Shown here piece by piece: positions 60,428-63,493 of a DNA stretch of 64,000 nt; position 1 is the stretch's first letter; the number at the start of each line of letters is the position of its first letter. The position numbers were made by a program, and so were the translations under genes. The notes beneath the pieces were generated by a model. That model made no database searches. It was not told where the DNA came from and saw only the letters and a list, made by a program, of their open reading frames with translations. Location: positions 1 to 64,000 of the forward strand of contig PGXB01000008.1 of NCBI GenBank assembly GCA_002838945.1. Reading direction: 5' to 3'. The DNA comes from a candidate division Zixibacteria bacterium HGW-Zixibacteria-1. GTDB lineage: Bacteria; Zixibacteria; MSB-5A5; GN15; PGXB01.

Positions 60428-61198
60428 ATGACCTTTTCTTTGAATAACAACTTGTCGGACAGCGGAATCATTCGCGGCCTGAATCAGTCTTTTCAGCTGC
60501 TGTATAAATCGGCCGAAAAGCTTGCAACGGGATTGCGGATCAACAGTGCCGCCGATGATCCGGCCGGGCTGGTTATTTCCGAAAGGATGCGGGCCCGCAT
60601 TGCCTCGCTAAATCAGGAAATTGAAAATGTCAGTCTGCAAATCAGAAAATACGAAACCGCCTCATCCCACTCCCTGCAACTGCGAAGCATGTTGACCGAG
60701 ATGCGTTCGGTTGCTGCGGCGGCAGCCAATGAAGGATTCAACAGCGAAGCCATGCAGAACGCTTATCAGGCTGAAGCTAACCGATTGGTCGAATCATATA
60801 ATTTTGTCGTACAAAATGCCGCTTTCGGAGAGCAGAAACTTTTGGATGGGTCGGACGGCTCACTGGCGAATATTCAGACACTGGAGCCGTTTGATTTATC
60901 GACCGCCGAGTCGGCCGATGCGGCGATGGAAGCCATCGATAATCAGACTTCGCGTCTCGACAGCATCATTGCCGATATCGGCGCCTCCCAGAAAAACGAT
61001 CTGGAAAGCCGCCTGACCGGCCTGCGCGTCGAGGCCGAAAACCTGACCGCGGCCGAATCTCAGATACGCGACACCGATTTTATGCTTGAATTCACCAATT
61101 TTATCAGGAATCAAATGATGGTGCGGGTTTCGGTATCGCTTCTGGCCCACAGCTTCCTGACCCCGCAATCGGTCCTGGCGCTGGTAGCAGAGAAGTAG
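60428..61198 (+). CDS. fliC: Flagellin, minimal D0-D1 form
   Basis: 256 residues. The N-terminal half has the flagellin signature: LNQSFQLLYKSAEKLATGLRINSAADDPAGLVISERMRARI, and an ND1-type ASSHSLQLRSMLTEMRSVA. The C-terminal half has ESQIRDTDFMLEFTNFIRNQMMVRVSVSLLA and ends TPQSVLALVAEK, like the canonical ..LPQSVLSLL. The central variable D2/D3 domains are absent, so filaments would be smooth. Exported by the flagellar type III system. No other flagellar gene is in this window. A FlgL-type junction protein is a less likely alternative. Confidence 0.88.
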   Translation: MTFSLNNNLSDSGIIRGLNQSFQLLYKSAEKLATGLRINSAADDPAGLVISERMRARIASLNQEIENVSLQIRKYETASSHSLQLRSMLTEMRSVAAAAANEGFNSEAMQNAYQAEANRLVESYNFVVQNAAFGEQKLLDGSDGSLANIQTLEPFDLSTAESADAAMEAIDNQTSRLDSIIADIGASQKNDLESRLTGLRVEAENLTAAESQIRDTDFMLEFTNFIRNQMMVRVSVSLLAHSFLTPQSVLALVAEK

Positions 61199-61327: not shown

Positions 61328-61936
61328 TTATTTCCGCAATGGCTGACCGCAGCCCAAAACCCAATCTTCGCATTCACACGGGGGATTCCCATTTTTGTAC
61401 AAGTAATTAATGAGCTGGGTTACATCCAGAATATTAATCATGCAATTACAGTCGGCATCTCCGGAACAAAGCGCATAAGGTCTAGGTGCTGATCCACCCT
61501 TGTAGAGATAATTGATCAGGAAAGATACATCCAGAATATTGATCGAACCGCTGGCATCGGCGTCCCCCGGGCGGCAATCACAGAAGAATTGCCAGAATCC
61601 GGATCGAACCAGATAAACCGCAGCGCTGTCGAATCCAATAGCGGACTGACCGACAGTCCCATTCAGCAGATATTGCTCGGAAATACCGGAAGTCGCACCG
61701 CTCCCAATGACCTGCCAGCTGATCGTATCGCCGGGCGACAGGAATATGGCTTGAATCGGCGTCACTTCCGGGGAGGATTCCATCTTATCAGTCGCGGCGC
61801 CTTCTTGCAGATTTTCGATATCTGTTGGCATGCCCTGATCATTTATTTCGTCGGAACTGTGAATCGTTGAAATCATTAAAAGAAATATTGTCAGCAAGCC
61901 AAATATGTTTTGAATAATCACTTTTTTTACAGACAT
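61328..61936 (-). CDS. Exported protein with paired dockerin repeats
   Basis: About 200 residues: a signal peptide (SVKKVIIQNIFGLLTIFLLMISTIHS), an acidic linker, a beta stretch SWQVIGSGATSGISEQYLLNGTVGQSA found in many FCB surface proteins, then two dockerin-type calcium loops, GDADASGSINILDVSFLINYLYKGG and GDADCNCMINILDVTQLINYLYKNG. Dockerins bind cohesins in cellulosomes, but no cohesin is seen here, and FCB genomes use such domains at protein ends more broadly. The start at 61936 fits GGAGTG inside the end of the upstream fibre gene, seven bases away, so the two are coupled. Confidence 0.87.
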   Translation of the reverse strand: MSVKKVIIQNIFGLLTIFLLMISTIHSSDEINDQGMPTDIENLQEGAATDKMESSPEVTPIQAIFLSPGDTISWQVIGSGATSGISEQYLLNGTVGQSAIGFDSAAVYLVRSGFWQFFCDCRPGDADASGSINILDVSFLINYLYKGGSAPRPYALCSGDADCNCMINILDVTQLINYLYKNGNPPCECEDWVLGCGQPLRK

Positions 61937-61943
61937 AATGGCA

Positions 61944-63296
61944 TCACTCCACAAACAGGTTGTAGCTTATCCGCCCGCCACTTCCGCCTTCTTCTCGAAT
62001 CTCAATAGTACGCTCCCCTGATCCGGTGATGTATGAGCTTAAATCCAAACCGCCGCTGGCAAAAGTGCCGTCAAAAGGACCCGCGACAGGTGATCCGTCA
62101 ATATAGACATAAATATTAGAAGGAAGAGTGCCTGCGGCAACACCGATTGCTTCCAGGCCGGCGCCGGTTGAAGATGCCGAGCCCGTGAAAGAGTGTGAGT
62201 GAGTAATATTATCGGCCGCTGTTGTCCCTGAATATGAGTGACTATGCGAAGGGCTGGCACTGCTTATGGATAAGGAGTGGCTGTGATTGCCTCCGGCATT
62301 GTTGATGGTCAAGGTATGATTATGACTACCCAAGGCACCATTTATGGTCAGCGGATGTGTATGATTACTTGAATCGGGACTGACCGAACCATAGACTACT
62401 TGATCATATCCGCCATTATCGATCAAGACATCACCAAGCGCTGCCAGATAATTCCCTGAATGAACGCCAAAAAAATAGAAATTATGATGGTGAGCGCCGC
62501 TTTTGGACATTGAATATGAATGGCCATGATTGAGATCGACAGATCCCATGCTATAGCCATGAGAATGCGACAGATTGTAGTCTCCGATTGATCCGGTATG
62601 CGTATGGGCGGCACTGGTGGTTCCACTGGTTCCAGAATAAGAATGTGTATGGGAAACCGAAGAAGAAACCACTGTGCCCGAGATATCGTGTGAGTGGGCA
62701 TTAATACCGTCATGAGTGTGATAAGAAAGAGGTCCCTGATATCCACTGCCGTATAAATATAAGGTGACAGTTGGATTGGCCGTTCTTGCCACGAAAGGCA
62801 CAACTGTTATGGAGTTGGGATTTATATCCATTATCTGATGATATAAATCACGGCTCTGGATCACGCGTTCTGAGACCACTGAATAGGCCGCCGTGTCCGC
62901 TGCATTTGCACTTTGCGCCTTCAGAGAACTGAATGCAAAAGATGTGCTGGATAAATCGGTCAGGATTTCCGAATCCATCCCGATTATTATCCCGAGCCTG
63001 AGTTTGCCATGATCGCCAAGTGTTCCCGGAAGGGGATTGGATGAACCCAGATAGTGATTGAATAACCCGTCTTTTACCTGGATCGGCAGATAGCCGTCGG
63101 ACGACCATATCTCATTATCCAGGGAGTCGATAATTCGGAATTTTATTGAGTAAATATTGTCAGCCACCGGCTTGCCGGTCAGGTCAGTTAAGCGGCCCTG
63201 GTAGCTGATTGTGTGTGGAATTTGTGCTGAGACAGCAGTTGTCAGCACGAACAGGACAATGATAGAGCATAGTGACAATAGCCAAATGCGCTTCAT
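61944..63296 (-). CDS. Exported fibre-like protein with twelve His-x-His motifs
   Basis: 450 residues. Signal peptide (MKRIWLLSLCSIIVLFVLTTAVSA), then an N-terminal domain IPHTISYQGRLTDLTGKPVADNIYSIKFRI... common in FCB surface proteins, then a low-complexity Ser/Thr/Gly-rich shaft with twelve HxH or HHH motifs mostly 12-15 residues apart, and a short C-terminal beta domain. Regular HxH motifs in T4-type tail fibre tips (gp37) coordinate iron along a trimer axis; a similar metal-pinned trimeric fibre is inferred here. The ATG at 63294-63296 has GGGGGG upstream. No phage genes surround it, so a chromosomal surface appendage or adhesin is preferred over a prophage fibre. Confidence 0.78.
   Translation of the reverse strand: MKRIWLLSLCSIIVLFVLTTAVSAQIPHTISYQGRLTDLTGKPVADNIYSIKFRIIDSLDNEIWSSDGYLPIQVKDGLFNHYLGSSNPLPGTLGDHGKLRLGIIIGMDSEILTDLSSTSFAFSSLKAQSANAADTAAYSVVSERVIQSRDLYHQIMDINPNSITVVPFVARTANPTVTLYLYGSGYQGPLSYHTHDGINAHSHDISGTVVSSSVSHTHSYSGTSGTTSAAHTHTGSIGDYNLSHSHGYSMGSVDLNHGHSYSMSKSGAHHHNFYFFGVHSGNYLAALGDVLIDNGGYDQVVYGSVSPDSSNHTHPLTINGALGSHNHTLTINNAGGNHSHSLSISSASPSHSHSYSGTTAADNITHSHSFTGSASSTGAGLEAIGVAAGTLPSNIYVYIDGSPVAGPFDGTFASGGLDLSSYITGSGERTIEIREEGGSGGRISYNLFVE
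62193..62720 (-). repeat. HxH repeat region of the fibre gene
   Basis: Codons for HTH, HSH, HTH, HTH, HSH, HGH, HHH, HTH, HNH, HSH, HSH, HSH occur in that order. Most intervals are 12-15 residues, with one gap of about 43 after HHH. Repeats differ at the DNA level, so they are old or selected rather than recently copied. Confidence 0.85.
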
Positions 63297-63493
63297 AGGT
63301 CCCCCCATGTAAAAGGTTAGAAGTAACGCAGTTTATTAGACTACGATGTAGTATTTTGACTCAGATATGTTGACGAATCTAATTGTGCAATCTTCCGACC
63401 TTAGAAATACGATTTTCTAAAATGAAATTTTAAGGGTTGTGCTCAAAACCCGTCCAATTATACTAAATGGCAACTTGAAAGTCAATATATCGT

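Follow-up and report, generated by a model that had tools for sequence, protein, structure and literature searches.

Introduction

In gp37, the tip of the long tail fibre of bacteriophage T4, the polypeptide chain runs out and back. Its collar is formed by residues 811-881 together with 1010-1026, with the needle between them carrying seven irons along its length and G964 touching H929 of the neighbouring chain (PMC6957217). HxH motifs contributed by three chains bind iron in gp37, in the R-type pyocin fibre and in the P2 spike, and both the pyocin fibre shaft and the P2 gpV and phi92 spikes hold one buried iron in this way (PMC6116203). The pyocin fibre has one HxH site only, and the pyocin, P2 and phi92 proteins are parts of contractile machines, unlike the protein that we describe here. 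A further case is the tail fibre of Alteromonas phage R22Y, where six HxH motifs are predicted as iron sites in the fibre trimer (PMC11705849); this too differs in being a phage protein, and its iron sites are a prediction only.

Bacteria have surface fibres of their own. The mosaic adhesive trimer (MAT) proteins of Bdellovibrio combine a constant N-terminal domain with diverse tips, trimerization being the invariant, and the tips named in the main text of the paper describing them are S74, beta-sandwich, TNF-like and C-type lectin domains (PMC10769870). Neither histidine nor HxH is mentioned in that main text. Here we analyse a gene from a genome of the uncultured phylum Zixiibacteriota that lies in a 64,000-nucleotide stretch of DNA, referred to as the window, and encodes a protein combining features of both systems.

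Two arms of HxH motifs flank a variable tip

The gene, its domains and its downstream neighbour are listed in Table 1; the likelier start codon is the second ATG, at 63296. A preliminary description of this DNA had proposed a signal peptide, a shaft rich in Ser, Gly and Thr and twelve HxH motifs. The N-terminal hydrophobic segment is typical of a signal peptide, the composition of the shaft agrees with the proposal, and the motifs are found at residues 197, 205, 220, 235, 248, 261 and 273 and again at 316, 329, 342, 355 and 370. They account for 24 of the 26 histidines in the ladder. When residues 191-385 were shuffled with their composition kept, the mean was 3.4 HxH motifs, and twelve were reached in 1 of 200,000 shuffles.

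Table 1. Map of the ladder gene and the gene downstream of it (positions in the window)
Feature	Position	Strand	Remarks
Whole gene	61944..63308	-	454 aa ORF; orthologues in G002, G008 and G111
Signal peptide region, residues 1-29	63222..63308	-	Hydrophobic segment; model shows helix 4-26
N-terminal beta-rich domain, MAT-N-like, residues 30-152	62853..63221	-	NCBIfam NF053851, below cut-off
Conserved pre-needle block (collar-like, first half), residues 153-196	62721..62852	-	62% mean identity, gap-free
Outbound arm, residues 197-275	62484..62720	-	Seven HxH; one 13-residue unit missing in G002 and G008
Variable tip, residues 276-315	62364..62483	-	34% mean identity, minimum for the C-terminal part
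Return arm, residues 316-385	62154..62363	-	Five HxH; one 13-residue unit missing in G002 and G008
C-terminal beta domain (collar-like, second half), residues 386-454	61947..62153	-	60% mean identity, gap-free; four strands
Secreted dockerin type I protein gene	61328..61936	-	Dockerin_1 E=6.6e-7; putatively co-transcribed

The intervals between successive motifs are 8, 15, 15, 13, 13 and 12 residues, then 43, then 13, 13, 13 and 15. The steps, described earlier as mostly of 12-15 residues, are thus of 8-15 residues except for a single gap of 43, which had not been singled out and proves important, and what had been called a ladder of twelve is better described as two antiparallel arms, of seven and five motifs, on either side of a variable tip. 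Counted from the tip the two arms are near mirror images, with steps of 12, 13, 13 and 15 in one and 13, 13, 13 and 15 in the other. A mirror fit of the arm steps as good as this is obtained in 24 of 720 permutations, and comparison in the same direction does not fit. On reading, a YSGT motif was also seen in the 15-residue step nearest the gap in both halves of the protein.

The motifs sit in strands of a regular pattern. Four positions on from the first His, 73% of the 44 motifs have a hydrophobic residue and 0% a polar one, and polar residues occupy +3 and +5 in 82-86%; the corresponding values for gp37 are 71% hydrophobic and 0% polar at +4, and 86 and 71% polar at +3 and +5. None of 20,000 shuffles matched this pattern. 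Amphipathic strands of this kind would place the His pairs on the hydrophobic face, where residues directed towards a core would be expected, and the His pairs of the ladder probably face inward. These features also make it unlikely that we are looking at a flexible surface protein, rich in His, whose exposed HxH motifs scavenge zinc, nickel, copper or iron and whose regular spacing results from repeat expansion only. The abundance of His, the Ser, Gly and Thr-rich composition and a monomer model without structure in the ladder would all suit such a scavenger, but the confinement of nearly all ladder histidines to HxH motifs and their position on the hydrophobic face of the strands would not, and neither would a spacing fixed across about 50% divergence and unit changes that are paired between the arms, both described below. 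In a census of 13-spaced ladders in the phylum the remaining matches were, by reading, charged His-rich stretches or chance, and most of the other 13-spaced His clusters are rich in Asp, Glu and Arg, unlike the ladder.

Unit changes are paired between the arms in orthologues and in gp37

The preliminary description had called for a search of related genomes for the same N-terminal domain joined to an HxH ladder, and this search recovered three orthologues. The ladder with its C-terminal block occurs in 4 of 132 genomes of the phylum, namely the window's own, G002 and G008 from the same family, and G111 from another family of the same class, the assignment of G111 being slightly less sure at a tabulated contamination of 9%. 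A scan of the genome collection returned the G002 record only; such scans rest on short peptides that distant members can escape, as the G111 orthologue did. The four orthologues share 44-51% identity. In G111 the intervals are 8, 15, 15, 13, 13 and 12, then 46, then 13, 13, 13 and 15, and in G002 and G008 they are 8, 15, 15, 13 and 12, then 46-47, then 13, 13 and 15. In the alignment, exactly one 13-residue unit per arm is missing from the latter two proteins, which have ten motifs. One event on one branch may explain both indels, and the telling point is their joint occurrence, one in each arm.

T4 gp37 has three HxH motifs, a gap of 37 residues and four further motifs. We compared it with eleven homologues from other phages (L021:6543-9623 and L037-L047, T4 included). 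A 14-residue step is present in both halves of the tip (eight sequences) or in neither (four), without exception in the twelve, and two or three short return steps accompany outbound steps of 31-32 or 42, respectively, again in 12 of 12. The Fisher value is 0.002 for each pairing, a nominal figure that serves as a guide and not as a probability, the sequences being related. Given the out-and-back structure of gp37, its paired arm units indicate that matched unit changes are a product of an out-and-back needle, and at the level of sequence the Zixiibacteriota family shows the matched changes expected of one.

The likeness to the gp37 tip (residues 811-1026) thus takes in two arms of HxH motifs with a variable tip between them, strands of the form HxHx(hydrophobic), unit changes that are matched across the arms and conserved flanking blocks. 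The two differ in the number of rungs (twelve in the Zixiibacteriota protein, seven in gp37), in unit length (13 residues against 9, 10 and 14) and in what follows the last HxH, about 85 residues including an extra beta domain here and 28 residues in gp37. Sequence comparison revealed no homology with gp37 (hhalign probability 24, over 14 columns) or with any other phage fibre. Mean identity among the orthologues is 60-62% in the blocks at residues 153-196 and 386-454, 53-54% in the arms, 37% in the N-terminal domain and 34% in the tip. A conserved base with a variable tip is what would be expected of a needle that binds a receptor.

A beta-solenoid made of a single chain, with a coil for every 13-residue unit and the histidines stacked along the same face, appears very improbable. 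The unit length and the amphipathic strands would suit a small solenoid, yet the interruption by a variable tip, the mirrored spacing and the paired loss in the two halves would all be unexpected of it, and the AlphaFold2 model contains no coil.

Structure predictions and database searches

In the AlphaFold2 monomer only the N- and C-terminal domains fold, the ladder having a pLDDT of about 26. An unfolded ladder in a monomer model fits an obligate trimer and proves nothing. The C-terminal domain modelled alone forms a four-stranded sheet (pLDDT 76) with no significant match to its fold in the PDB or in viral structure libraries. A fold search with the full-length model gave weak beta-sandwich matches, none under 0.001. 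Pfam and PHROGs returned nothing for the ladder protein, and sequence searches of the PDB, with the protein and with a profile, gave chance matches only.

A probable relationship of the N-terminal domain to the MAT family

The N-terminal domain had been described as a bacterial surface type, and it appears to be related to that of the Bdellovibrio MAT proteins, albeit below the curated cut-off. The nearest NCBIfam model is NF053851, Bdello_MAT_N ('mosaic adhesive trimer family chimeric fiber protein'), with E-values of 2.6e-5 for the window protein, 1.2e-8 for the G111 orthologue and down to 3.9e-10 in paralogues. These matches score 17-40 bits, against a curated cut-off of 60, and align only positions 2-80 or so of 162. 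The domain is present at seven further places in the genome and in 38 of the 40 genomes searched. The C-termini attached to it in the paralogues include one S74-like, one UspA1-repeat-like and one BclA-like region, all weak profile matches, and others that could be assigned to no family. One genome therefore carries one N-terminal domain with differing C-termini, which is the mosaic feature of MAT. One MAT-type paralogue, L003:1474-3224, appears to be split, perhaps through a frameshift, into ORFs of 339 and 166 aa.

In common with the MAT proteins of Bdellovibrio bacteriovorus, as set out in the main text of Caulton et al. 2024 (PMC10769870), the ladder protein has a putative signal peptide and what appears to be a counterpart of their conserved, beta-rich N-terminal domain of about 130 residues, and variable phage-like C-terminal tips are found in those proteins and in the Zixiibacteriota paralogues alike. 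The host is different, belonging to the Zixiibacteriota, which are not known to be predators. We suggest that the ladder protein is probably a MAT protein in the wider sense, set apart by a new tip.

Genomic context and a conserved dockerin partner

The ladder gene was reported to have no phage genes near it, and the neighbours in the window confirm this, comprising a flagellin gene, ftsA and ftsZ and, by reading, the gene for ribosomal protein L28. The flagellin-type gene is short (60428-61198) and lies directly after ftsA and ftsZ. The surroundings are different in the relatives, with motB, yebC and ruv genes in G008 and NFACT and yidC in G002. In G111 the ladder gene stands in a run of MAT-type proteins (L020:3087-15271) whose C-termini are S74 or otherwise phage-tail-like, with dockerin-like proteins in between. 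These MAT-type proteins are the ones that give PHROG tail matches in G111, and no capsid, portal or terminase was found among the genes tested.

In all four genomes a gene for a secreted protein begins 3-10 bases downstream of the ladder gene. Its product has a Pfam dockerin in the window and dockerin-like repeats, by alignment and reading, in the other three. The same partner beside differing neighbours in four genomes points to a two-gene unit that was kept together while its surroundings changed. The 3.8 Mb window genome (G000) has a large cohesin-dockerin repertoire, with about 117 matches to dockerin type I and seven to cohesin (two above cut-off), so the partner may dock on a cohesin. 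T4 gp37 requires a dedicated chaperone, and in 8 of the 11 sampled phage homologues the downstream gene is annotated as an assembly protein. No gp38/Tfa assembly gene lies next to the ladder gene, where the downstream product is the secreted dockerin protein, without a PHROG match.

This context also bears on whether the gene is a remnant, or a recently domesticated copy, of a prophage tail fibre that became joined to an N-terminal domain of the host. Other known needles of this design belong to phages and pyocins, and a similar-looking ladder is present on one viral contig (see below). However, prophage structural genes, which the preliminary description had named as evidence against a cellular fibre, were absent from all four loci among the genes tested; relatives of the ladder and C-terminal domain were absent from phage (50,697 records), plasmid and viral-contig collections; and the C-terminal domain was not found in viruses, while the conserved partner is a non-phage gene. 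We consider such an origin quite unlikely and reject it on genomic context, although a very old capture may have taken place.

A possible metal-stitched needle on the cell surface

Conserved spacing, paired units and a shared hydrophobic face make a trimeric out-and-back needle with buried metal the likely fold of this protein. A secreted needle fibre of the gp37 type had been put forward from the outset, and it gains support from the spacing code kept in four orthologues, the rung loss paired between the arms, the HxHx(hydrophobic) strands as in gp37 and the MAT-related N-terminal domain. We infer from these features the trimer, the out-and-back fold, the metal, the surface location and the role in adhesion, and judging from the sequence the ladder most likely works like gp37, as a trimeric out-and-back needle with a metal at each rung. 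That the whole protein is a secreted, homotrimeric surface fibre of the MAT type bearing a gp37-like metal needle is, in our judgement, a likely reading.

In this fibre the MAT-like N-terminal domain would anchor the protein at the cell surface and the C-terminal 300 residues would form the needle. Three chains would extend outward along seven HxH rungs, reverse at the variable tip and come back along five, ending in the small beta domain, which may pack close to the base against the 153-196 block. Each rung would bring together three HxH pairs, whose six histidines would coordinate a single buried metal, probably Fe(II); a fibre would then contain up to twelve ions, or ten in the case of the two shorter orthologues. 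Contact with the target, be it a surface glycan, a particle or another cell, would fall to the tip.

The arrangement suggests that the cell uses a phage-style metal-stitched needle for its own attachment. If so, a metal-needle tip joins the MAT repertoire, the range of MAT-type fibres comes to include a phylum studied mostly through metagenomes, and one shaft design is found on both sides of the phage-host divide. It is an evenly balanced question whether bacteria built, or long ago domesticated, a gp37-like iron needle as an exchangeable MAT tip paired with a dockerin protein, which would make the metal needle a design of general use in rigid trimeric adhesins rather than something peculiar to phages. 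Matched gains and losses of units between two arms offer a cheap sequence test for needle topology, and the model makes a quantitative prediction of twelve metal ions per trimer for the protein described here and ten for two of its orthologues.

The viral contig mentioned above carries a tail-fibre-like gene (L022:4684-6300) with twelve HxH motifs near the C-terminus of its product. Their steps are mostly of 7-9 residues, and we take the likeness to the Zixiibacteriota ladder as compositional only.
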